NCBI RefSeq assembly: GCF_000378005.1
Contig: NZ_KB899040.1
Location: 1,355,997-1,418,154, forward strand
DNA length: 62,158 bases
Source of the DNA: Coprothermobacter platensis DSM 11748
Lineage (GTDB): Bacteria; Coprothermobacterota; Coprothermobacteria; Coprothermobacterales; Coprothermobacteraceae
Reading direction: 5' to 3'
Shown: positions 8,936 through 21,994 of the stretch, piece by piece
How positions within the stretch are numbered: position 1 is the stretch's first letter
Layout of the letters: each line of letters starts with the position of its first letter
Notes under the pieces: model-generated
Databases searched by the model: none
What the model saw: the letters and a program-made list of their open reading frames with translations, nothing else
What the model was told of the DNA's origin: nothing
Program-made: the position numbers and the translations under genes

Positions 8936-8946
8936 TTTTTTGTTTG

Positions 8947-8961
8947 TGGCACGTTTGTTGC
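8947..8961 (+). promoter_or_regulatory. Sigma-54-type (-24/-12) promoter
   Basis: TGGCACG-TTTG-TTGC matches the RpoN consensus TGGCACG-N4-TTGC at every specified position. It predicts a start of transcription near 8973, only about 8 nt before the ATG of the next gene. The same 20-base string recurs at 15433-15452 upstream of the 1433-aa surface protein gene. Confidence 0.6.
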
Positions 8962-8980
8962 GCATTCCTTTTATAGAGAC

Positions 8981-9856
8981 ATGAGTGATTGGCATTTGCA
9001 ATTAAAGAAAGTTATTGCCCTCATGGTGCTTGTGTTCTTTACGTTGGGTGGCTCTTTACCCTTGTTCCCGCGCCATGTGAACGCTTCTATAAATTACAGT
9101 GAACAGCCTGCTTTTGTGCCCTTGGCGCTAAAAAAACTCGAGCTTACCGCTTCTCCTTCCGTGGTCACCGCAAGCGAGGATGCCCATGTAATGCTTTCTT
9201 TGCGCGATGTTACCAGCGCCAGCACACCCACGGCTATTGAGCAGGGGTCTTTGGTTACAGTGATGGTAGGCAGTTTCACCACTACTGCTACCGTAGGCAA
9301 AAAGGGCATGGCATCTGTAACACTGCCTGCTGAAGTTATTACCGGCAGCCGTTTAGTCGCAGTGGTCATTGTTCCTGGTTATCAAAAGGCTGCATTCACT
9401 CTTTTAGTTCAAAGTGCAACATTAAAAAGCGGATTAACTTCCAATGCTGAACAAAACAGCGTAACAGTGGAGCTTCAAATAGGCAATCCAGTGTGCAAGG
9501 TAAACGGAAAGAACGTGCGGCTGGGGGTTTCGCCTTACATAAAGGAAGGTAGAACCATGGTTCCCATTCGCTTCTTTGCTGAAGTTCTCAATTACCGTGT
9601 GCAGTACGACTTTTCTGACCCTCATATGAAACGCATCATGATTTACACACCGGAGCAGAATAAAAAAGATGCCCCGTTTATGACCATGTTCATTGACCAA
9701 AGCGCTGTTCTGATTGGTGGTGTTTTGGTAGAGATGGAAACTGCTCCAGAGCTCGTTACTGGCACTACCATGGTTCCTCTGCGTTTTGTGGCGCAAACAC
9801 TGGGCTACACAGTGCAGTGGAAACCCAATGTAATCATAGTGCGCTCCAATCCATAA
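8981..9856 (+). CDS. Secreted Ig-like plus stalk-module protein
   Basis: Exported protein of 291 aa with an N-terminal signal (KKVIALMVLVFF), one Ig-like repeat (about 54-146, ASPSVVTASEDAHVML to GYQKAAFTLLV) and a copper-amine-oxidase-N1-like module (about 155-291). The module is of the longer subtype, with VQYDFSDPHMKRIMIY between the two signatures GRTMVPIRFFAE and GTTMVPLRFVAQ. The Ig repeat is related to the repeats in the proteins at 13695 and 15642. No ribosome binding site precedes ATG 8981 and the sigma-54-like promoter leaves a very short leader; a TTG at 8996 is an alternative. Function unknown beyond a surface role. Confidence 0.75.
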   Translation: MSDWHLQLKKVIALMVLVFFTLGGSLPLFPRHVNASINYSEQPAFVPLALKKLELTASPSVVTASEDAHVMLSLRDVTSASTPTAIEQGSLVTVMVGSFTTTATVGKKGMASVTLPAEVITGSRLVAVVIVPGYQKAAFTLLVQSATLKSGLTSNAEQNSVTVELQIGNPVCKVNGKNVRLGVSPYIKEGRTMVPIRFFAEVLNYRVQYDFSDPHMKRIMIYTPEQNKKDAPFMTMFIDQSAVLIGGVLVEMETAPELVTGTTMVPLRFVAQTLGYTVQWKPNVIIVRSNP

Positions 9857-9917
9857 GTATCACAACCGCTTTTTTGTCAGTATGTAACTGCTTTCTTTTG
9901 TTTGTTCACCTCTGTGC

Positions 9918-9957
9918 TGTGCAAAAGTGCACATTTATGCCCTCCTTGTTATATAAT
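9918..9957 (+). promoter_or_regulatory. Protease promoter with overlapping palindrome
   Basis: TATAAT lies at 9952-9957. The perfect inverted repeat TGTGCA-aaag-TGCACA (9918-9933) ends 18 bp upstream and covers the -35 position (TGCACA). It is a plausible operator for a repressor controlling the protease gene. The regulator is not identifiable here. Confidence 0.5.
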
Positions 9958-10025
9958 GCTCACTAATAATGTGAGATGACCTTTTTACGCCAACGTGGGG
10001 GATTACCTAAGCGGGGTTTTTCTGC

Positions 10026-10046
10026 AAACACCTTTGTGTTTTTTTT
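10026..10046 (+). terminator. Weak attenuator-like hairpin in the protease leader
   Basis: AAACAC-cttt-GTGTTT followed by six more T residues resembles a minimal intrinsic terminator. It lies between the promoter and the GGGAGG ribosome binding site. The stem is only 6 bp, so the call is tentative. Confidence 0.3.
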
Positions 10047-10068
10047 ATAGGAGAAGGGAGGCAAAGTA

Positions 10069-13000
10069 ATGAATGTTTGTGGTAAGAGGAAAAATCAAGT
10101 AAGACGGTTATTCTCGTTGATTACCAGCATCGTTGTTGCCGCTGCGCTTATGTTTTCTGTATCTCCTTCTGTGGGTGCTGCCACCAAAAACAGCACAATT
10201 ACTTCCACAGAGACACGCCAAACTGTTTTAAATGCGCTTCAGTCTTATGCTCTCAGTGTTCCTAAAAGTACGGTTGTAGTGGATGGCGGTTTGGTATTAC
10301 CGAAGGACGTTTATGAAGGCATAACAAGCAGCGGAGGAAAGGCAAAGCTGTTTGTTGAGGTAAACCAAAAAGTTGACACCCAAAGCCCGACTTATCGAGC
10401 GCAAGCAGATGCCGCTCACATGTTAGCTTTCGCACAGATAAAACTTGCTGCACCTGATGCTGTGAAAAAAGCTGATTTGTACTACACTATGAACGGTTTC
10501 ACCATGGAAGTTCCCCTTGCTCAGCTTAAGAATGTGCTTTCACAGGAAGGCAGTGGAGCTGTTAAATCCATGGCGCTATCTAAACGTTATGAAATAAATG
10601 ATGAGTTGAACACGGTCCCTGATGGTGGCGTAGTTTCTCCCCAGATGGTGAACTCCGCCACGCTCATAGGTGTACCTGAAGCTTGGAGCCAAGGTTATAC
10701 AGGTTCGGGAACATACGTTGCCATTATCGACAGTGGCATCGATTATAAGCACGAGAACTTCGGCGGTTACACCAGTTTCCCCAATGAAAAAATCCCTTAC
10801 GGCTATGATTTTGCCGATAAGGACGCAGACCCCATGGATGCCAACGTTGCTATTGGCGGTCATGGCACGCATGTAGCCGGTACTGTAGCAGGCATAGGTA
10901 AAGCTTCGTTCCCTGACAAAGATGGAAATCAAATTCCTTTGAAGGGCATAGCACCGGATGCCAAACTCATAGCAGTGAAAGTGTTCAGCGATAAAAGCCA
11001 GAATGCTTACGGCGATGATATCGTAGCTGGCATTGACTACCTTATCAATCTTAAGAAAAGTGGCGTGAACGTGGTTTCTGCAAACATGTCACTTGGATCG
11101 ACCAAAGGTTTTGATGACCCTGAAGACCCCGAACAAAAAGCCATTAATGCCGCGGTGGAATCTGGCATTACCATGGTCATAGCCGCTGGCAATGACGATT
11201 ACAGCAACTACTCCGCCATCATCCCCGGAGACGCCGATGAAGGCACTGCTTCCACCACTTACATAAAGGATGTTTCCACACTGGGCTCTCCCGGAACCGC
11301 TACCTCAGCCATAACCGTAGCCGCTGTAAACAATGAAGGCGTGGTACTGCAAGGAAAGAAGCTCACTTTCGGTGACAAGCAATATGTTCTGTATTTAGCC
11401 AGTGGTGAAGCACCAGACCCCGTGGATGTGTTTAAGAAAGAAACGGTAAAACTTGTGGATACGGGCAGTATCATGTGCGCAAATGATGGAAAAGATTACA
11501 GCGGTAAAGTAGTGCTGCTCGATAGAGGCACGTGCACCTTTGAGGTGAAGGTGGGCATTGCTAAAGAAGAAGGCGCCATCGGTGTGGTTGTGGGCAATAA
11601 CAATACAGATAGAACATTGGTGTCCATGGCGCTGGGCTCCTCTGCAAGCACCATCCCAGCCGTTTTTGTGAATGGTCCGGACAAGCTCACGCTCAGAAAA
11701 GCCATAGCCGATGCAGGTGGCACCATGGATGTCGTTTTTAGCGACGAAGAGGCAATCAGTTACGCTCCCGCAGATGCAAACGTTGTCGCTGACTTTAGCT
11801 CCTGGGGTCCATCCCCCGATTTATCTTTTAAGCCCACCGTAGCAGCTCCGGGTGTAAGCATATTTTCTTCTATCCCCGGTGATAAGTATGAAACGATGCA
11901 GGGTACATCCATGGCAACGCCACATGTGGCAGGCGCTGTAGCCCTCATAAAACAGGCACACCCTGATTGGACGCCAGAGCAAATAAAACAGGCACTGGTA
12001 AACACAGCGGAGCCCATTGGTTTTTACAGCCCACGTTTGCAGGGTGCTGGCAGAATCAATGTTGCCAAAGCCATAGAAAATGGTGTTTTCGTTACTTCAG
12101 CCGTCACGGGTGAACCTTATGCCGAGTTGGGCATGTTCACCTCCAGCACCGCAATGACGTTGTCAGTAAAGAACACCACCACGCAAACATTTACCGCCAC
12201 ACTGGACGGCTACGTTACCACGTCACACAGTCAGTACGGCACAAGCAATGAAGGCAAAGTTGTGGAAATAGGCACGTTAAGTATGCCGTCAGCAATCACC
12301 GTAAATGCGGGAGAAACAGCCACCTTTGATGCCGTAGTCAATGCAGACCCAACATGGAACAATACCTTCATCGAAGGCCGTGTTCTGCTAACTTCAGCGG
12401 ACAACAATGTGTGGGTTTTACCGTTCATGGGTTATTTGGGTGATTGGAACATTTACAGTGACCCTGACACCATAAATGGTGATGCAAAGTTCCCGGACAA
12501 CAACAACATTGTGGACCTTCCATGGTGGAATGCTGATTTTACGTGGACTGGTTCTACCGGTCTTTACTGGCCTCAGCAACCCAGTGTTTACATACCGTTG
12601 GGTATGAAGGGTGACGGGTTTGATCCATCCGCTTTAGCCATCAGTGCTGGGTCTCCTTATAGCATCATGAATAACAGTGTGCAGGTTGTACTTACCATGT
12701 TAAGAAATGCAGAAAACCTTAATATCAGTGTGCTGGATGGCACAGGCAGCGTTGTGAAAACCATAGCAAAAGAAGAAATGGTTCGTGGCAACTACCTAAA
12801 GAGCACAGAGAATCCATCGTGGTATGACGGTTGGAATCATCCATGGTTCTGGGATGGCACCGATGAGAGCGGCAAACTTCTGCCAGAAGGCAATTACACC
12901 GTGCGCATAGAGGCATACCCCGGCAAGCTCATTACGGGTCAAGATACGGCAACGCAGATTATGGATATGCCCATTGCCATTGACCGCACCCAGCCCACGG

Positions 13001-13578
13001 TAAGCGCTTCCTTTGGCAGTGCGCGTTTGCTTACACAAAACGTTTATGTTCCTACCTCTTCTGTGGTGACACTTACTATGACAGGTTCGGACAGCTCCAG
13101 CATACTTGGTTATGTGGTAAACGATGAATTCATAACGGCAAACTTGGATAAGGCAAACACGGGTACCACAGCCATCAGCGTGGCATCGCTTTCTGGCAAA
13201 GAAGGGCAGCGTGTGGCTGTGCCCATTTCAGCCGTGGACGGAGCCGGTAATGCTAAAGGCACATACACATACCTTGTTTATGATGACCCCGCTACTATGC
13301 CAAACATAAATGCGCTGGAAAATATTGTTAATGGAAAGAATGCCACCGTAAAGATGAACATCACAAACGCGCCAGGCGCTTCTTTCACACTGGAAGTCAT
13401 TTCAAAGTGGGACAATAGCACGGTTTACAAAACTACTGGCTTGGTCACTACGTCCGATTATGACTTTGCTGCAAACATGAGCGTGGACAAAGCAGGCGCT
13501 TATGCTGTAAAGGTCGTTGTAACCGATATCTACGGCAATACCGCAGTGGCAGATGGGCTGTTTCGTGTCAGCGATTAG
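10069..13578 (+). CDS. Secreted subtilisin-like serine protease (S8) with PA domain
   Basis: Large exported endopeptidase of 1169 aa. ATG follows GGGAGG. Signal peptide (RRLFSLITSIVVAAALMF), then a propeptide-like region to about 185. The S8 domain holds D221 (AIIDSGID), H265 (GGHGTHVAG), oxyanion N375 (AAGNDD) and S614 (GTSMATPHVAG), so the triad is complete. A protease-associated (PA) domain is inserted at about 430-565 (KVVLLDRGTCTFEVK), as in lactocepin/C5a-peptidase-like enzymes. Fn3-like stretches follow, with a FlgD-Ig-like WDGTDESGKLLPEGNY near 925-940. It lacks the stalk module found on its neighbours, so it may be released or held another way. It probably supplies peptides for the binding proteins in this window. 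Confidence 0.93.
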   Translation: MNVCGKRKNQVRRLFSLITSIVVAAALMFSVSPSVGAATKNSTITSTETRQTVLNALQSYALSVPKSTVVVDGGLVLPKDVYEGITSSGGKAKLFVEVNQKVDTQSPTYRAQADAAHMLAFAQIKLAAPDAVKKADLYYTMNGFTMEVPLAQLKNVLSQEGSGAVKSMALSKRYEINDELNTVPDGGVVSPQMVNSATLIGVPEAWSQGYTGSGTYVAIIDSGIDYKHENFGGYTSFPNEKIPYGYDFADKDADPMDANVAIGGHGTHVAGTVAGIGKASFPDKDGNQIPLKGIAPDAKLIAVKVFSDKSQNAYGDDIVAGIDYLINLKKSGVNVVSANMSLGSTKGFDDPEDPEQKAINAAVESGITMVIAAGNDDYSNYSAIIPGDADEGTASTTYIKDVSTLGSPGTATSAITVAAVNNEGVVLQGKKLTFGDKQYVLYLASGEAPDPVDVFKKETVKLVDTGSIMCANDGKDYSGKVVLLDRGTCTFEVKVGIAKEEGAIGVVVGNNNTDRTLVSMALGSSASTIPAVFVNGPDKLTLRKAIADAGGTMDVVFSDEEAISYAPADANVVADFSSWGPSPDLSFKPTVAAPGVSIFSSIPGDKYETMQGTSMATPHVAGAVALIKQAHPDWTPEQIKQALVNTAEPIGFYSPRLQGAGRINVAKAIENGVFVTSAVTGEPYAELGMFTSSTAMTLSVKNTTTQTFTATLDGYVTTSHSQYGTSNEGKVVEIGTLSMPSAITVNAGETATFDAVVNADPTWNNTFIEGRVLLTSADNNVWVLPFMGYLGDWNIYSDPDTINGDAKFPDNNNIVDLPWWNADFTWTGSTGLYWPQQPSVYIPLGMKGDGFDPSALAISAGSPYSIMNNSVQVVLTMLRNAENLNISVLDGTGSVVKTIAKEEMVRGNYLKSTENPSWYDGWNHPWFWDGTDESGKLLPEGNYTVRIEAYPGKLITGQDTATQIMDMPIAIDRTQPTVSASFGSARLLTQNVYVPTSSVVTLTMTGSDSSSILGYVVNDEFITANLDKANTGTTAISVASLSGKEGQRVAVPISAVDGAGNAKGTYTYLVYDDPATMPNINALENIVNGKNATVKMNITNAPGASFTLEVISKWDNSTVYKTTGLVTTSDYDFAANMSVDKAGAYAVKVVVTDIYGNTAVADGLFRVSD

Positions 13579-13628
13579 TGCTGCTGCTAAGCTCCATGCG
13601 TATTTTGGTTAAAAAATGAAAGATTAAG

Positions 13629-13671
13629 GTGCAGGCTTTTCTCACCAAGCGCATATTTGAAAAGCCTGCAC
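13629..13671 (+). terminator. Perfect 13-bp hairpin after the protease gene
   Basis: GTGCAGGCTTTTC (13629-13641) and GAAAAGCCTGCAC (13659-13671) pair perfectly across a 17-nt loop, followed by only TTT. It may be a weak terminator or an mRNA-stabilising hairpin. It contains the GTG at 13629, which is therefore not a start. Confidence 0.5.
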
Positions 13672-13694
13672 TTTGCAAAAGGAGGTTCAACGAA

Positions 13695-15350
13695 ATGGTA
13701 AAAAAGGCAAAAAAGCTATTTTCACTCATAGCAGTTCTGTCGCTCATCTTTACGCTTGTGCCTGCTCTTGGTGTTGGAGCGCAGGAGGAGGCTCTGCCTT
13801 CGCTTGTGGTAACAGCGAGCCCCAACGCTGTCTTTTTAGGTGCTGATGCCACCATAACGCTGTCACTCACAGACGGCGCAGGTTCCCCTGTGGCAGGAGG
13901 CATTTCTGCCATCATTTCCGTAGATGGGCTCGGTTTTGCCACAGTGACCAACAGCGCCACCGATGGTTCCATTGTGGTGGTAATTCCTCAAAGCAAGCTT
14001 GCAGAGGGCACCTTTGAAGGCAGTGTAATGGTTTCAGGTTATCAAAAGGGTGTTTTCACACTGCAAGTGGCTGGCAAGCAGCTTGTGGCTGCTCCCACTT
14101 CTGCAACCATTACCTTTGGCCAAAAAGTGCCTCTTGCAATCACCTTAAAGAGCGAAACAGGTTCCGTAGTTCCTCAGGGCGTAGAGGCTTTGCTGTCACT
14201 TCCCAAAGGCTCCGTAGTGGCAAAGGTGGGCGCTGATGGCGTGGCTGATTTTACTCTCACCCCTGACCAGCTCATGGTTGGCAACTGCACCGCCATTTTA
14301 AGTGTGGAAGGCTATGCCGATGCCGTGATTACCCTGAACATTGTTCCCGGTGCACTGCTTACCGACCCGGCCAACTTTGATGTATCTTTTGCGAAGACGG
14401 TAACGCTGGTATTCGGCGTCTTGGAAGAAAGCAGTTCCACAGCCCTTCCCGAAGGCACGCCCATCACCTTTGCACTGGACGATTTTGTTAAAACCGTTAC
14501 CTTAGGCAAAGACGGCACAGCCACCATCACGCTTGGCCCTGAACAGCTTAAAGTGGGCGAAACGCTTGAACCCACATTGAAAGTGGAAGGTTATGATGCG
14601 GTAAAACTGCCCATTAACGTTAAAGAGGGCTTGCTCAAGCTTGACCCTGCAGAGCTTACTGTGAGCGGCAAGCAGGATGTAACTTTTACCGTGACATTGA
14701 TGGACAGCGCCAGCATGGATGTTCCTTACATGCTGAAGGATGAGCAGTTAGTAGCGACATTCACCTTTGGGCCCATATCAGCCACTGCTGCCGTGGGTAA
14801 AAACAGCAAAGTTACTTTTACCTTGACGGCATCCGTTTTTGAAGAGCTGGGTGGCGGCACCTTTGACAGCGCCGTTATGCTTTATGGTTTCGCCAGCGCG
14901 CCTTTTAAATTTTCTATAACGGACCTGCCGCAGAAAGAACAGCCTCAGGAACCAGAGGAGCCAACTGCTTCAGGAACAGTAATTGCTTTTACCATTGGTT
15001 CCAACACCTTCATATTCAACGGTGAAACCAAACAGCTTGATGTGGCTCCTTACATCGCCGATGGACGTACCATGGTGCCTCTTAGAGCTTTGTGCGAAGC
15101 CTTGGGCTTGACCGTTAATTATGACTTTACCAAGCCAGATGAGAAAAAAGTAACCATCAGCGGGGCAGAAGATATCGTTCTGACTGTGGGCAGTAAAACA
15201 GCTCTAATAGGTGGCGAAGCGGCTTCTTTGGATGCGGCGCCAGTCATAGTTTCTGGAAGAACCATGGTGCCTGTAAGGTTTTTGGCTGAGGCGTTGGGCT
15301 TTGCCGTAGATTATTCCGACGGCGTTGTAACCTTGACGCAGCAGCCCTGA
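13695..15350 (+). CDS. Secreted four-repeat Ig-like protein with stalk module
   Basis: Exported protein of 551 aa. ATG 13695 follows AAAAGGAGG and opens a typical signal peptide (KKAKKLFSLIAVLSLIF). Four Ig-like repeats of about 90 residues (about 35-125, 127-215, 219-305, 311-410) each end in a GY/GF plus alternating hydrophobic strand (GYQKGVFTLQV, GYADAVITLNI, GYDAVKLPINV, GFASAPFKFSI). A Pro/Glu linker (PQKEQPQEPEEP) leads to a stalk module (about 427-551) with GRTMVPLRALCEALG and GRTMVPVRFLAEALG. It lies 116 nt after the protease gene. It is probably a cell-surface structural or spacer protein. Confidence 0.8.
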   Translation: MVKKAKKLFSLIAVLSLIFTLVPALGVGAQEEALPSLVVTASPNAVFLGADATITLSLTDGAGSPVAGGISAIISVDGLGFATVTNSATDGSIVVVIPQSKLAEGTFEGSVMVSGYQKGVFTLQVAGKQLVAAPTSATITFGQKVPLAITLKSETGSVVPQGVEALLSLPKGSVVAKVGADGVADFTLTPDQLMVGNCTAILSVEGYADAVITLNIVPGALLTDPANFDVSFAKTVTLVFGVLEESSSTALPEGTPITFALDDFVKTVTLGKDGTATITLGPEQLKVGETLEPTLKVEGYDAVKLPINVKEGLLKLDPAELTVSGKQDVTFTVTLMDSASMDVPYMLKDEQLVATFTFGPISATAAVGKNSKVTFTLTASVFEELGGGTFDSAVMLYGFASAPFKFSITDLPQKEQPQEPEEPTASGTVIAFTIGSNTFIFNGETKQLDVAPYIADGRTMVPLRALCEALGLTVNYDFTKPDEKKVTISGAEDIVLTVGSKTALIGGEAASLDAAPVIVSGRTMVPVRFLAEALGFAVDYSDGVVTLTQQP

Positions 15351-15390
15351 GTACATAAGTAGAAGATAAACTAACCTCCTTCATTACGCG

Positions 15391-15424
15391 GGCGTTCCCC
15401 CATATGGGGGAACGCCTTTTTTGT
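15391..15424 (+). terminator. Strong rho-independent terminator
   Basis: GGCGTTCCCCC-atat-GGGGGAACGCC, a perfect 11-bp stem with a tetraloop, is followed by TTTTTTG. It isolates the surface-protein gene downstream from the protease block. Confidence 0.9.
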
Positions 15425-15433
15425 TCACAGCAG

Positions 15434-15448
15434 TGGCACGTTTGTTGC
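15434..15448 (+). promoter_or_regulatory. Sigma-54-type (-24/-12) promoter of the large surface protein
   Basis: TGGCACG-TTTG-TTGC again fits the RpoN consensus perfectly and sits just after a terminator, exactly where a promoter is needed. The predicted transcript start near 15460 leaves a leader of about 180 nt. Confidence 0.65.
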
Positions 15449-15511
15449 GCATAAAAAGAATTGAGAAGCTCCTGCGGTGGTATAAAAACGTAAAAGCACA
15501 AAAAGGAGCAG

Positions 15512-15590
15512 ATGACCTAAAGCATTGATGACCTAACGGAGGAAGCAAAAACCTAAATTGGGGATGACCTAAGGGAAAATTAACCACCTA
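15512..15590 (+). repeat. ACCTAA leader repeats with Met-Thr minigenes
   Basis: Five ACCTAA motifs occur at 15515, 15531, 15551, 15567 and 15585, spaced 16-20 nt apart. Three are in the form ATG-ACC-TAA (15512, 15528, 15564), the first preceded by AAAAGGAG at ribosome-binding distance. A related ATTACCTAA lies in the protease leader at about 10002. They lie in the untranslated leader of the next gene and may affect its translation or stability. Confidence 0.5.
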
Positions 15591-15641
15591 AGTCAAGAGC
15601 AACTCAAAAAAATTTAAATACCTCATGAAGGAGGGAAAGAA

Positions 15642-18600
15642 ATGAAAGCAAGCAAGAAATTATTTGCACTGCTCGCCGTACTGACTATGGCTTTGACACT
15701 CATGCCTATTACTGCGCCAGTAAGTGCAGCTACAGGGTTAGTCATTGACCCATCTACCGCTACCATTTTTGTTGGCGAAACGAAACAGTTAACGTTAACC
15801 TTAGATGGTGGTTCTCTTGGTGGTAGCTATGTTGTTTCTTGGGACACTGCCTCGCATGGTATAGCTACCGTAAACGGCAATGGTTTAGTGACTGCAGTCG
15901 CTGCTGGACAAACAACCGTTACAGCCACTGTTAAAACTAGTGGCGACACAGTTATTGGTACAGCACAAGCAGCTATCAATGTAGTTGCAAAGCCGACTAC
16001 TCCTGGAGAATTGGTTGGCAATACAGCTATTACTGCTGCTCAGGATATTAGTTTAGACCCTATTATTAATGCCACTATAAACTTCACAGCTACGACCGCC
16101 TCTATAGATCCCAGTTATGTACTTGGATTAAAGATAGAGGGAAGCTCAGCACTTTCTGGAACGACGGCAAGTGTAATGCTTAAGACGGCGCAAACATCAT
16201 CTTCTTTTGATGCTAATGGAACAACTACTATAGTTTTCACAGCACCTTTACTTAATCAGCTTACCCCTACGAACACGTTAAGAATTGAATTAATGAGCGG
16301 CAGCTACATCTATCTGCCCAGTGAGACCACCGTTACTATCACACTTTTTGGTGGGACAGCAGCAGAAATCAATGCTGGTACAGCCAGTGTACTTGCGAGC
16401 AAAGCTGTAACCTTAAACCCTCACACATTCAGTTTGCAGAGGCCTGACCAGATAGTTCTAACGCCTAACCAAACAGCTACTTACCAAATTACGCCAAAAC
16501 TCGCCAATATTGCAGCTTCTGCATTTACATCTGCTACTCTTGGTGCTGTCGCCAATGATTCCAACGTAGTGACGACTATAAGCATAGATAACAATACTGG
16601 ACTAACAGTAAAAGCAGGTTCCAATCCCGGCTCTACATACGTTACTATCACAGCTACAGTTAGATACAGTGGCCACGATTACACTGCCACAGCAATAATT
16701 CCGGTAATTGTTTCTCAGCCTGCTGATGGTATAGTCCTTTATAATGCGGCTGGTTCTTGGGTTACAGCAGATCAGCTTCGTTACAAGGTAACCTATGATG
16801 TAGTAAATGCATACAACACGCAGAATTTGGCAGTACAGGTCACCAGTAGCAATGGAATAGTTCTCGGTTCAGCCCAACTTGGTCAACCAGTGCTCATACC
16901 TTTTACAACATTGGTGAACAGTTTAGGCCAAACAGACACTTATTTGAAACTGAGTGTTGTTGGTGGTACTACCAGTGTGACAGTGCCAATAACATTCCTA
17001 TCACTTGATGATTCAACGTTTGCCAGCTCTTATGTTAGTGGCCAGCCGGTGGGTACTGTGACAGGTACCATAAACAATGTTAAGTATTGGCCTCTTTCTG
17101 GCAACATCCCCTTAGCTTTGGTTGCTGTATGGACTGCTCCTGATGGAAGCACCAAGTCAGCACTTGTGCCATCTGCTACATTTACAGCAACACTCTTAGC
17201 TGATGACAATACTACAGCAACATTCTCTGTTCCATCTAACGTCCGCTTCACGGTTCCAGCGGGCAGCGTATATCTTGTTTCCAAGAGCATAGCTGACGCC
17301 ATGGTAGATGGAAAAGTATATGGTGTATCTGTTGCAAAGTATGCCTATAAGACCATCACCATTACCCAAGGTACTTTGGTTGCTAATCCAAACACCGTAA
17401 ACGCTCCAGCTACAAAAGAGATTTATCTGTACGACCAGTTTGGTTATCCTCTGGCTGGTACACAAGTTAAGCTTCAGTATGGATATAAGGACGCAAATGG
17501 CAATGTTATACCAGCTATTACCGCTACGACAAATGCTGATGGTAAGGTTTCTTTTAACTTCCCACAGCCATACGCATTCGGAACTTACACTGCTACCATT
17601 TCAACGTTTAAGTCTGGCGCTTATGTTGATGGTGCAGTAGCTCTGACCGTTTCTTATGCAGGCGGCTTCAGCTTAGGCGATTTAGCTATGACGGGGTCCA
17701 TTGGCTCACTTAATATGCACGTGATTTCTACAACTGCTTCCATAAGCAAACTTTGGATCAGTGTCGATGATACAAGTACAGTTTTAGAAACTTTTGCAGC
17801 ATACCCGAGTGGCAATGAAGTTGATTATAAGTTGGCTCCTACAGGATATACTCAGACGTTTGTATATGCCAATAACGGTGCATGTGGCGTAAGTGTTACC
17901 GACTCTTACTGGGTTGGTAATGCTAAGGACGTAACACTTACTGGTACTGCTCTTCGAGGCGGAAGCTTTACTGTAACTGCAAAGGCTGAACTTGCCGATG
18001 GCAGCATTGTAACTACCAGCAAGCAGTACATTGTCAAAGCTTATAGGATTGATAGCATCACACCAGCTTCAACAACCTATGGAACGGCTACCACAGTAAA
18101 GATAGTTGTAAAAGACTGGTATGGCAGCCCCGTTGATAATCTGCAGGTTAAACTGCTAAATGGTGCTAATGCTTACACACTGATACGTGGAGATTTCGGT
18201 ACCTATACTTATACAATACCTGGTGCTGCAACACCTGGGACATACAGTGTAGAGATCAATGGCGTAAACTACAGCACATTGAACAATGGTGTGACATACA
18301 TAAGCAATAGCTATTTCACCGTTAATCCTGCATTAGACCTTAAGGTGACCGCGCCTGCTACGGTTAATGCCATGTCCAGCTTCAATGTGGCAGTCGCCGA
18401 TGCAAACGGAAACCCAATCAATGGCAGTTGGTATGTTGTCGATCCTTACAATGAATTATATACAGTAGCAGATGGCTCCGTGGTTTCTGGGCAGTTTACT
18501 GTAAACACTGCTAACTTTAGTTCATATACTGAACTGCCACTGCCACTGGGTGCCTATACATTGGTTGTCACCGATAGCAATGGTCAGCATGGTGCGGAAG

Positions 18601-19943
18601 TTACATTCAATGTGATTGCGCCTGCAACGATTACGCCTACCGTAGTAACTAACGGCATAAGCAGCACATTTGTAGTGCAGATGACATCTACTGGTCTTAA
18701 TGCCAACCAGATCAAGTTCGCAGATGCTTCGAGAACTGTTTGGCAGGTTGGAAGCGTTAATACTACGGCTACGAAGGTTGTTTCTTTAGCTTACGGAGAT
18801 AGAAACATCAGCACAAGTGGACAGACAGCAACGGTTATAGTCAATGTTCAAAAGAAGCTTGAATGCCCTAACGCTGTTGTGCGTTTGGAGTATGGCAACT
18901 TCTTATTACCTACAAGTGTTGCTGTTGGTCACCCTCAGCTTAGCTTTGTAAACACAGCTACCCTGTATGCAGGCGACACTGTACCTATGCAGGTGAAACT
19001 CGTAGATGCTTTAGGCAATCCTATTAAAGGTGCAGTCATAAAGCTTTATCAGCTTGGTTACACTAGTTTAACTGCAACGACGTCTTCTACAGGTATTGCT
19101 GATTTTGGGTATGTAACTATTAGCGTACCTGGCAACATTGTTGCTGAATTACTGTCTAGTCCTGATGGCAAGACTGTTACTGACTACAGGCTTATCGGTC
19201 AGACAGATGATACTAACTACAAGGTAACTCAGCAGGTTTACGCTGCCAGACCCAGCCAGGAGCTTAAGGTAACCGTAACCCCGACATCTGTGGTAGAAGG
19301 GCAAAAGGCTACTTTAACACTGACATTGGTTGGTGCTGATGGCAAGGCTGTTGAGACTGGCAAGAACGTCATGGTTTCCATCGGCTCTTCCACTTTCAAC
19401 GGACTTGTGGGCGCCAACGGCGTAGTAACCGTGAACGTGGATGGTACCGCACTTACTGGCACAGTAGTAACAGGTGTAGTGAAGGTTGAGGGTTACAATG
19501 CTGCAACCTTTACTTTAGCTGTTACACCAGTGGCTAAGACCGGTACTGTCATTGAGCTTGCCGTGAACAATGATATTTACACCATTAACGGCAAGACATT
19601 GTTCTGGGATGCTACACCTTATGTGAAGGGCGGCAGAACATTAGTACCTATTAGAGCTTTGGCAGAAGCGCTTGGATTCCAGGTTACCTATGACTTCAGC
19701 GATGTCAAGAACAAGACTGTGTACATTTACAAGGCCGGTCAGGACATCGAGAAGGAAAAGGATAATCCTTACATCCTGCTTGTAATTGGTCAGCCAACCG
19801 CTATGGTTAATGGCCAGCTTGTGGGATTGGACGTTGCTCCTGAGATTCTCAACAGCAGGACCATGGTCCCATTAAGATTCGTATCTGAGACCTTGGGCTA
19901 CAATGTTGAGCTTGATGGAACAATGATCCGCCTGAGCAAATAG
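15642..19943 (+). CDS. Large secreted surface protein with Ig-like repeats and stalk module (possible S-layer-type protein)
   Basis: Exported protein of 1433 aa. ATG follows GAAGGAGGG. Signal peptide MKASKKLFALLAVLTM ending near SAATG; a Big_2-type domain (about 33-115, VTAVAAGQTTVTATV); many further Ig-like stretches rich in Thr, Val, Ser and Asn; an Ig repeat of the neighbouring family (about 1206-1296); and a C-terminal stalk module (about 1304-1433) with GRTLVPIRALAEALG and SRTMVPLRFVSETLG. Size, composition, a strong terminator on each side, its own sigma-54-like promoter and a good ribosome binding site suggest an abundant envelope protein. S-layer function is inference; SLH domains are absent. 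Confidence 0.82.
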   Translation: MKASKKLFALLAVLTMALTLMPITAPVSAATGLVIDPSTATIFVGETKQLTLTLDGGSLGGSYVVSWDTASHGIATVNGNGLVTAVAAGQTTVTATVKTSGDTVIGTAQAAINVVAKPTTPGELVGNTAITAAQDISLDPIINATINFTATTASIDPSYVLGLKIEGSSALSGTTASVMLKTAQTSSSFDANGTTTIVFTAPLLNQLTPTNTLRIELMSGSYIYLPSETTVTITLFGGTAAEINAGTASVLASKAVTLNPHTFSLQRPDQIVLTPNQTATYQITPKLANIAASAFTSATLGAVANDSNVVTTISIDNNTGLTVKAGSNPGSTYVTITATVRYSGHDYTATAIIPVIVSQPADGIVLYNAAGSWVTADQLRYKVTYDVVNAYNTQNLAVQVTSSNGIVLGSAQLGQPVLIPFTTLVNSLGQTDTYLKLSVVGGTTSVTVPITFLSLDDSTFASSYVSGQPVGTVTGTINNVKYWPLSGNIPLALVAVWTAPDGSTKSALVPSATFTATLLADDNTTATFSVPSNVRFTVPAGSVYLVSKSIADAMVDGKVYGVSVAKYAYKTITITQGTLVANPNTVNAPATKEIYLYDQFGYPLAGTQVKLQYGYKDANGNVIPAITATTNADGKVSFNFPQPYAFGTYTATISTFKSGAYVDGAVALTVSYAGGFSLGDLAMTGSIGSLNMHVISTTASISKLWISVDDTSTVLETFAAYPSGNEVDYKLAPTGYTQTFVYANNGACGVSVTDSYWVGNAKDVTLTGTALRGGSFTVTAKAELADGSIVTTSKQYIVKAYRIDSITPASTTYGTATTVKIVVKDWYGSPVDNLQVKLLNGANAYTLIRGDFGTYTYTIPGAATPGTYSVEINGVNYSTLNNGVTYISNSYFTVNPALDLKVTAPATVNAMSSFNVAVADANGNPINGSWYVVDPYNELYTVADGSVVSGQFTVNTANFSSYTELPLPLGAYTLVVTDSNGQHGAEVTFNVIAPATITPTVVTNGISSTFVVQMTSTGLNANQIKFADASRTVWQVGSVNTTATKVVSLAYGDRNISTSGQTATVIVNVQKKLECPNAVVRLEYGNFLLPTSVAVGHPQLSFVNTATLYAGDTVPMQVKLVDALGNPIKGAVIKLYQLGYTSLTATTSSTGIADFGYVTISVPGNIVAELLSSPDGKTVTDYRLIGQTDDTNYKVTQQVYAARPSQELKVTVTPTSVVEGQKATLTLTLVGADGKAVETGKNVMVSIGSSTFNGLVGANGVVTVNVDGTALTGTVVTGVVKVEGYNAATFTLAVTPVAKTGTVIELAVNNDIYTINGKTLFWDATPYVKGGRTLVPIRALAEALGFQVTYDFSDVKNKTVYIYKAGQDIEKEKDNPYILLVIGQPTAMVNGQLVGLDVAPEILNSRTMVPLRFVSETLGYNVELDGTMIRLSK

Positions 19944-20517: not shown

Positions 20518-20661
20518 CTCCTGTGTAATCCCCCTAATGAGGCGGGGGAGTTTCTACCTGCGGACCGTAAATCTGCAGACCACAGGGGTGGAGAAACTGC
20601 TTATTCACTCCGCATGTTCTTCACCTCCGGTGGTCCAAGCATGAACCTTGGAAAAGGAGGT
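20518..20661 (+). ncRNA. Guanine riboswitch (purine class) with SD-sequestering expression platform
   Basis: P1 is CTCCTGTG (20518-20525) with CACAGGGG (20581-20588); P2 is CCCCC with GGGGG; J2/3 is TTTCTACC; the P3 loop contains CCGTAAAT; and the ligand-specifying base in GACCACAG is C, indicating guanine rather than adenine. Downstream, ACCTCC (20623-20628) can pair with GGAGGT (20656-20661), the ribosome binding site of the permease, around an inner TCCAAG/CTTGGA hairpin. Without ligand, the 3' side of P1 (GGGGTGGAG, 20585-20593) can instead pair with CTTCACCTC (20619-20627) and free the site. The logic is translational repression by guanine. Confidence 0.88.
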
Positions 20662-20671
20662 CGATTTTATT

Positions 20672-21994
20672 TTGATTAAGTGGCTGGAAAAACACTTCGA
20701 GTTTGAATCCCGCGGTGCTCATTGGGCTGACGAGGTTATCGCTGGCTTTACCACCTTTGTCACCATGGCTTACATTCTTTTTGTGAACCCAAACATATTG
20801 GGAACGACGGGTATGCCCAAGGGCGCTGTTTTAATGGCAACTGCCATCGGAGCTGGCATCTCCACGCTGATGATGGGACTCTACGCCAAGCTGCCTTTCG
20901 CTTTGGCGCCCGGCATGGGGCTCAATGCTTATTTTGCCTACTCGGTGTGTCAGGGCATGGGCCTGCCGTGGCAGGTGGCACTGGGCGCTGTGTTCATCGA
21001 TGGCGTAATTTTCTTCTTGCTGTCAGTTACACCTGTTCGGCGTTGGATTGTGCAAGCCATCCCGCTGAGCATCAAACTGGCAGCTTCTGTGGGCATCGGT
21101 TTGTTTATTGCCTTCATCGGCATGATTAATGCCGGTTTGGTTGTAAAAAACGATTCTACGTTGGTCGCTTTGGGCAGCGTGACCAAGCCTGAAACCGTGC
21201 TGGCTTTGGTGGGTTTGATCATCATCGTGGTGCTCATGGCATTAAAAGTAAAGGGCAACATTCTGCTGGGCATTTTGATTACCACATTCATTGGCGTCTT
21301 TGTGAAGGGCAGCAGCGGTGCGCCCATTACAAACTTCACCGGCTCGCTGGTGGCGCTGCCAAACTGGGGCGAGCTTTCGCAAACCTTCGGTGCCATGGAT
21401 GTTCTGGGAGCCATAAAGTGGGGCTTTGTTTCCATCATATTCACCTTCACCTTTGTGGACATGTTTGACACGCTGGGTACCATAGCTGGTTTGGCGGCAA
21501 AACTGAACATATTAAAACCTGACGGCAGTTTTGATGGAGCTGACAGGGCGCTTGTTACTGACGCTGTGGGCACCATGGTGGGTGCCGTGGCTGGCACGTC
21601 CACGGTGACCACTTACGTGGAGTCGGCAGCGGGCATCGCTGAAGGTGGCAAAACGGGTGCCACATCTGTGGTAACAGGCATTTTGTTTTTGCTTTCTTTG
21701 TTTCTTTGGCCTTTGGCTGAGGTGGTGCCTTCGGCTGCCACAGCACCTGCCCTCATTGTGGTAGGCTTCCTCATGATGGAACCTATTTTGAAGATTGATT
21801 TTTCCAAAATTACCGAAGCAGTACCAGCTTTCATAACCATGATTGCCATGCCGTTCACCTATTCCATCGCTAACGGGCTCATTTTTGGCATTCTCAGTTA
21901 TGTTATTATGAAGCTTTTTACAGGTAAAGCAAAAGAAATTCACCCCGTTTTGGGTGTGCTTGCTGTGGTGTTCATTGTGTATTTGATTCATTAG
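20672..21994 (+). CDS. Guanine/hypoxanthine permease (NCS2, AzgA/PbuG type)
   Basis: Membrane purine:proton symporter of 440 aa with about 12 hydrophobic segments. Family motifs: AGFTTFVTMAYILFVNP near the N-terminus, APGMGLNAYFAY, FVDMFDTLGTIAGLA and the substrate-site region GTSTVTTYVESAAGIAEGG. TTG 20672 is chosen because GGAGG lies 11 nt before it; the frame opens at TTG 20648, but that is upstream of the ribosome binding site. The guanine riboswitch directly upstream agrees with purine uptake and should shut synthesis down when guanine is plentiful. A hairpin follows. Confidence 0.92.
   Translation: MIKWLEKHFEFESRGAHWADEVIAGFTTFVTMAYILFVNPNILGTTGMPKGAVLMATAIGAGISTLMMGLYAKLPFALAPGMGLNAYFAYSVCQGMGLPWQVALGAVFIDGVIFFLLSVTPVRRWIVQAIPLSIKLAASVGIGLFIAFIGMINAGLVVKNDSTLVALGSVTKPETVLALVGLIIIVVLMALKVKGNILLGILITTFIGVFVKGSSGAPITNFTGSLVALPNWGELSQTFGAMDVLGAIKWGFVSIIFTFTFVDMFDTLGTIAGLAAKLNILKPDGSFDGADRALVTDAVGTMVGAVAGTSTVTTYVESAAGIAEGGKTGATSVVTGILFLLSLFLWPLAEVVPSAATAPALIVVGFLMMEPILKIDFSKITEAVPAFITMIAMPFTYSIANGLIFGILSYVIMKLFTGKAKEIHPVLGVLAVVFIVYLIH

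Follow-up and report, generated by a model that had tools for sequence, protein, structure and literature searches.

This analysis concerns a 62,158-nucleotide (nt) stretch of the Coprothermobacter platensis DSM 11748 genome (contig NZ_KB899040.1, positions 1,355,997 to 1,418,154; 44% G+C), hereafter the window, and two copies in it of a predicted −24/−12 promoter, P1 and P2, that lie in front of genes for secreted proteins. These two seem to be the chief targets of a sigma-54 (RpoN) of unusually short form that is encoded in the same 1.42 Mb genome (G000). The features of the locus, with protein lengths in amino acids (aa), are as follows.

8946–8965, + strand: P1, predicted −24/−12 promoter GTGGCACGTTTGTTGCGCAT; exact match, predicted transcript start near 8973
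8981–9856, + strand: gene for a 291-aa secreted protein with Cu_amine_oxidN1 domains, the first gene past P1; orthologues lie behind P1 in genomes G001 and G002
10069–13578, + strand: gene for a secreted subtilase of 1169 aa (Peptidase_S8, PA, FlgD_ig), in the presumed P1 operon
13629–15350, + strand: gene for a 573-aa Cu_amine_oxidN1/immunoglobulin (Ig)-like protein, the presumed end of the P1 operon
15390–15422, + strand: intrinsic terminator with a 12-bp stem and a T-run, separating the P1 operon from P2
15433–15452, + strand: P2, predicted −24/−12 promoter GTGGCACGTTTGTTGCGCAT; exact match, predicted transcript start near 15460
15460–15641, + strand: long 5′ leader predicted for the giant gene; it has a stem near its 5′ end (15468–15509) and the Shine-Dalgarno sequence AAGGAGGG at 15628–15635
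15514–15592, + strand: ACCTAA-type repeat array, with copies near 15515, 15531, 15551, 15567 and 15586
15642–19943, + strand: gene for a giant secreted surface protein of 1433 aa with Big_2, other Ig-like domains and a C-terminal Cu_amine_oxidN1 domain

Two identical −24/−12 elements

A pattern search of the window found TGGCACGTTTGTTGC on the + strand at 8947–8961 and 15434–15448, and these are its only two zero-mismatch matches to TGGCACG-N4-TTGC. Both had been noted in a preliminary description of this DNA, together with a match between them that extends to 20 bases; the stretch common to the two copies is indeed exactly 20 bases long (8946–8965 and 15433–15452). Under a dinucleotide model, the 15-mer pattern, which has 11 fixed bases, is expected 0.049 times in the window and 1.1 times in the genome, and copies of the 20-mer are expected 3 × 10^−7 times in the window. 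Searching the genome with TGGCACG-N4-TTGC, as the preliminary description had proposed, yielded three exact matches, the third of which (C1:536768) was rejected as lying within the gene for a 418-aa protein. With up to two mismatches allowed, the window contains 27 matches against a shuffle mean of 20.9, a count not above the shuffles, so that only the perfect sites are informative.

Both sites are intergenic and, as described earlier, stand upstream of genes for secreted proteins, the second one after a terminator, which we found as a 12-bp hairpin followed by a T-run. P1 starts 11 nt past the stop codon of a gene for an ABC-transporter ATPase; the ATG at 8981 follows the site by 19 nt, and the predicted leader is 8 nt long, with no clear Shine-Dalgarno sequence. 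P2 and the ATG behind it, at 15642, are 193 nt apart. Between the terminator and that ATG, no sigma-70-like match is better than 9/12 (TTGAGA-16-TAAAAA), and this one falls within the predicted leader. Promoters of the −24/−12 class carry TGGCACG-N4-TTGC or a near match, with GG and GC 10 bp apart, in intergenic positions upstream of a transcription unit that are kept in relatives; P1 and P2 match this sequence exactly and occupy such positions.

Conservation of the sites in related genomes

The identical 15-mer is found twice in the sister species (G001), where the copies are 6.9 kb apart and precede orthologues of both gene groups, and once in a member of another genus of the same family (G004), at the P2 place before the giant gene. 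Orthologues of the giant gene lie behind P2 in both organisms, and GC-rich hairpin-like runs precede P2 in both; the best sigma-70-like match before the giant gene of G004 is 7/12. In G002, whose genome, like that of G003, is incomplete, a P1 copy with the spacer TTCG stands before the orthologous Cu_amine_oxidN1–subtilase genes. Subtilases are encoded at the same place in G001, G004 and G002. All six copies have G before and R-Y-W-Y after the element. Since the silent sites of the rpoN and activator genes (see below) are saturated between G000, G001 and G004, the five identical 15-mers, spacer included, point to constraint. The site TGGCATGCACGTTGC of G004 (C1:202836) was considered as a possible P1 and rejected because it lies within an opposite-strand open reading frame (ORF). 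The 20-base pattern GTGGCACGTTTGTTGCRYWY has 10 matches among 84,980 genomes, which is about the chance level (7–8 by simple counting), one of them in a Coprothermobacteraceae record.

Searches for further sites in the same group revealed little else. TGGCAY-N5-TTGC occurs at 52 places in five genomes, and those whose context was examined lie in genes, except for the positions orthologous to P1 and P2. A looser scan of the C. platensis genome with TGGYRY-N5-YTGC, which covered the earlier places in that genome again, produced no comparable second target; the other TGGYRY-N5-YTGC and one-mismatch sites in it are nearly all within genes, and none was accepted as a target. Also set aside, for non-consensus elements or a likely coding context, were the sites L148 (a palindrome), L152, L163 and L182 and the gene-end candidates L041, L199 and L202.

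A shortened RpoN

The preliminary description had predicted from the two sites that the genome would encode RpoN and an enhancer-binding activator, and we found one rpoN gene (PF04552, 61 bits) and one true enhancer-binding protein. The rpoN gene (L011:3575–4564) is situated between whiA and the glycolytic genes gap-pgk-tpi, in a neighbourhood that reads rapZ-whiA-rpoN-gap-pgk-tpi from the translations. A search of the genome collection for this RpoN gave no match.

The RpoN proteins of Coprothermobacteraceae consist of 329–340 aa, compared with 418–530 aa in nearly all others compared. Their helix-turn-helix (HTH) domain and RpoN box are kept (PF04552, 60–61 bits; SRRTVNKYR). The core-binding domain PF04963 scores above its cut-off and covers only profile positions 17–81 of 185 in G000; in the alignment, the second half of this domain is missing or collapsed. 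The activator-interacting domain PF00309 (region I) was detected neither in G000 at E ≤ 0.01 nor in G001 and G004 at E ≤ 1, and is present in the sister-family RpoN of G007 and in a distant control. Some 35–40 residues of the family proteins align with region I and lack its L/Q-rich signature and NPxLE end. The score against the equivalog model TIGR02395 is 93.7 bits, below the cut-off of 277, which marks this protein as a divergent relative rather than a standard RpoN. The gene is under purifying selection, with a ratio of non-synonymous to synonymous substitution rates (dN/dS) of 0.05–0.10 within the genus, and diverges faster than the activator gene (52% versus 84% identity). The earlier proposal of sigma-54 control over surface-protein genes is supported by the retention of the sites before orthologous secreted genes and has to be qualified for an RpoN that has no recognisable activator-interacting domain.

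The activator and a candidate kinase

The only true sigma-54 activator in the genome (Sigma54_activat, 246 bits; next best 32) combines a receiver with an AAA+ domain that has the Walker A motif GESGTGKE and GAFTGA, and so is of the NtrC type. It is conserved in every genome of the family (75–97% identity; dN/dS 0.04–0.06 where measurable). Its gene is followed by one for an exopolysaccharide sugar transferase, and ORFs of similar size are found in the same order in G001 and G004.

Two members of the same order, G005 and G006, both draft genomes (87–93% complete), had no detectable rpoN, and their sigma-54-type activators (loci L073 and L074) have the GAFTGA segment deleted. Activators are known to become independent of sigma-54 through small deletions of this kind (PMC3162934). 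G000–G004 and G008, all with rpoN, keep GAFTGA, and the nearest activator match of G007 has GAFTDA. As GAFTGA is lost where rpoN went undetected and kept where rpoN is present, the activator of Coprothermobacteraceae most likely still serves sigma-54.

Among the HATPase_c matches in the genome, two kinases adjoin response regulators, and one classical kinase is an orphan (L214; 531 aa, membrane-bound, with no regulator in the stretch examined); the HATPase_c matches L215 and L216 were left out. The orphan is nearest to AtoS among the NCBIfam models and carries a HEIRNPLTAI-type motif, which is typical of kinases that partner NtrC-type regulators. It would be the best candidate partner of the activator. 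A gene for a 421-aa membrane protein with no Pfam match (L214:204–1469, − strand) comes directly after the kinase gene, and its product is a possible sensing partner.

Leader and repeat array of the giant gene

In the window and in G001, a hairpin begins about 8 nt into the predicted P2 transcript; the G004 leader also has one early on. The three leaders contain 6, 7 and 10 copies of ACCT, compared with 0.9–1.8 expected, and none or one of the complementary AGGT. ACCT often appears as ACCTAA, with a period near 15–16 nt across much of the G004 array. Such ACCTAA-type arrays are found in the giant-gene leaders of three species (window 15514–15592, L108:16740–16945 and L110:16290–16475), and no further cluster, by the definition used, was seen in the 1.65 Mb searched (overlapping stretches counted more than once). 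Overall, the leader shows no excess of structure over shuffled sequences (z −0.2 to −0.4), and a search against Rfam gave no match in the P2 leader; in view of this ordinary degree of structure, we make no claim of an RNA family. ATG-ACC-TAA mini-ORFs in the window leader were considered as a common feature and rejected, as they are not kept in G004. A fair guess is that the array binds a protein or a small RNA that governs translation or stability of the coat-protein mRNA.

A proposed small regulon of the cell exterior

Taken together, these data suggest, with a probability that we would put at roughly 0.78, that P1 and P2 are real sigma-54 promoters and make up the core of a very small regulon that serves the cell exterior. 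According to the proposed mechanism, RNA polymerase with the one, shortened RpoN of the genome would sit at P1 and P2 as a closed complex, and the NtrC-type activator, once phosphorylated, probably by the orphan NtrB/AtoS-type kinase, would open both promoters together. P1 would then drive the secreted subtilase operon (Cu_amine_oxidN1 protein, subtilase, Cu_amine_oxidN1 protein), and P2, insulated by the terminator, would drive the giant Ig-like surface protein via the long leader with its early hairpin and repeat array. Such joint opening would coordinate protease output with surface-coat renewal, so that protease and coat protein would rise together. With the subtilase among the putative targets, protein supply, which the preliminary description had suggested along with nutrients, would be an attractive signal, and the orphan kinase would be its most likely sensor.

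Several points weigh against this interpretation. All the support for a P1/P2 regulon is comparative. With no recognisable PF00309 and a truncated core-binding domain in RpoN, normal activator-dependent opening is not to be assumed. The HTH of the activator is degenerate: its ∼50 C-terminal residues align with a Fis-type domain, the usual GN...recognition-helix pattern is absent and there is no Pfam match. We found no convincing upstream activator site shared by P1 and P2; the candidates, two weak 10-mers, one of which is explained by conserved TMVP codons, were rejected (three simple shuffles served as the control). Given such an HTH and the lack of a clear upstream site, the activator may work in solution or by way of weak sites. 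P1 has no counterpart in G004, whose subtilase gene carries a TATAAT hexamer in its stead, which would make P2 the older or more conserved target, and the predicted 8-nt leader implies that the P1 mRNA would be almost leaderless. Finally, weaker sigma-54 sites may have been missed, as our search of the C. platensis genome relied on patterns and individual stretches rather than on a whole-genome weight matrix, and weak sites were scanned in G000 only.

A more specific version of the two-promoter regulon is tentative, and we would give it somewhat less than an even chance. It would be a minimal circuit in which an RpoN without canonical region I is opened by a GAFTGA activator with a degenerate HTH at essentially two promoters, those of a secreted protease and of a giant coat protein, with an additional, previously undescribed control of the coat mRNA by the repeat-array leader.

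Alternative explanations

Region I of sigma-54 is held to lock the polymerase and to be the target of the GAFTGA loop of the AAA+ activator; its role is the basis of an unlikely alternative, in which P1 and P2 are sigma-54 promoters served by a natural, activator-free 'bypass' form of RpoN, and are constitutive or regulated otherwise, e.g. through the P2 leader. The role of region I has been reviewed (PMC7057263); in model systems, a sigma-54 in which this region is mutated or lost no longer requires an activator, provided that the bubble is pre-formed (PMC7057263). PF00309 is lacking in three family members and present in both proteins used for comparison, and the DNA-binding end of the activator is degenerate, all of which fits such a form. 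However, bypass forms still require melted DNA (PMC7057263), the 35–40 residues mentioned above still align with region I, and the GAFTGA activator is highly conserved across the family, GAFTGA being absent exactly where rpoN was not found.

Rather unlikely, and a shade more so, is that P2 works alone and that P1 is decayed or accessory, the protease operon being read mainly from the upstream ABC-transporter operon or from some other promoter. The absence of P1 in G004, the near-leaderless P1 mRNA with no Shine-Dalgarno sequence and the fact that no good terminator is predicted between the ABC gene and P1 would all agree with this, whereas the identity of P1 in G001 and its single spacer change in G002, despite saturated silent sites, would not.

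It is improbable that the conserved 15-mer, for all its likeness to a −24/−12 element, is no promoter but the operator of a different DNA-binding protein. The spacers of sigma-54 promoters are usually free, and here N4 is conserved as TTTG, with the flanking G and R-Y-W-Y kept as well. Nevertheless, the exact TGGCACG-N4-TTGC geometry occurs in a genome that encodes both RpoN and a GAFTGA activator, P2 follows a terminator and is the best promoter candidate ahead of the giant gene, and in both the window and G001 the predicted start is soon followed by the hairpin. Accidental origin of both sites is hardly credible: a genome this large should contain about one exact 15-mer match, and one does occur in a coding region, but two intergenic matches with 20 common bases, each kept across a species or genus boundary, far exceed that expectation.

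Comparison with known systems

One RpoN, one NtrC-type activator and few promoters, the combination seen here, also make up the Borrelia RpoN-Rrp2 system and the single-activator system of Chlamydia. In both, RpoN has the ordinary layout, and the targets, rpoS or late developmental genes, differ from those of the putative regulon described here.

A close parallel is the way in which PrsK/PrsR and RpoN control PEP-CTERM surface proteins (Haft et al., 2006, PMC1569441; PMC9850573). As in that system, the gene of an NtrC-type activator neighbours one for an exopolysaccharide sugar transferase, and −24/−12 sites precede genes for secreted surface proteins. In contrast to it, the C. platensis activator scores 399 bits on TIGR02915, compared with the PrsR cut-off of 502.6, its gene has no kinase gene beside it, no conserved upstream activator motif was found, the targets are Ig-like/Cu_amine_oxidN1 proteins and a subtilase, and RpoN is shortened.

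Sigma-54 has been described as a controller of the bacterial exterior, mainly through precursor synthesis and transport (Francke et al., 2011, PMC3162934). The system proposed here would likewise serve the cell exterior, and the sigma-54-independent activators with small deletions reported in that work are comparable to those of G005 and G006; unlike the cases described there, the targets would be the surface protein and the secreted protease themselves. Coprothermobacter is not named in that paper (PMC3162934), and among the open-access papers searched we found none in which Coprothermobacter is mentioned alongside sigma-54 or rpoN. The SigL regulons of Clostridiales have the consensus TTGGCATNNNNNTTGCT, of the same −24/−12 type, and comprise 263 activators in 57 genomes, with identifiable upstream sites (PMC6615313), whereas here there is one activator, no clear upstream site and an altered RpoN domain layout.

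If the proposed regulon is real, an RpoN with no recognisable region I and without part of its core-binding domain, yet under purifying selection alongside an intact GAFTGA activator and two invariant promoters, would reveal what the sigma-54 mechanism can do without. Limited to one factor, a single activator and some two strong promoters, the system would be small enough for reconstitution as a whole. It would also point to joint control of protease secretion and the surface coat in a deep phylum known for its protein-degrading thermophiles.

Other features

Elsewhere in the genome, at L077 (G000:C1, ∼189–192 kb), flagellar genes were read from translations (FliN-like, CheY and FliO/P/Q-like). 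Downstream of the giant gene, the window contains a match to the 2dG-II purine riboswitch aptamer (20518–20588, + strand; E = 2.5 × 10^−12), which at 56.6 bits falls just below the Rfam gathering score of 60 and is located directly upstream of a xanthine/uracil permease gene (20648–21994).

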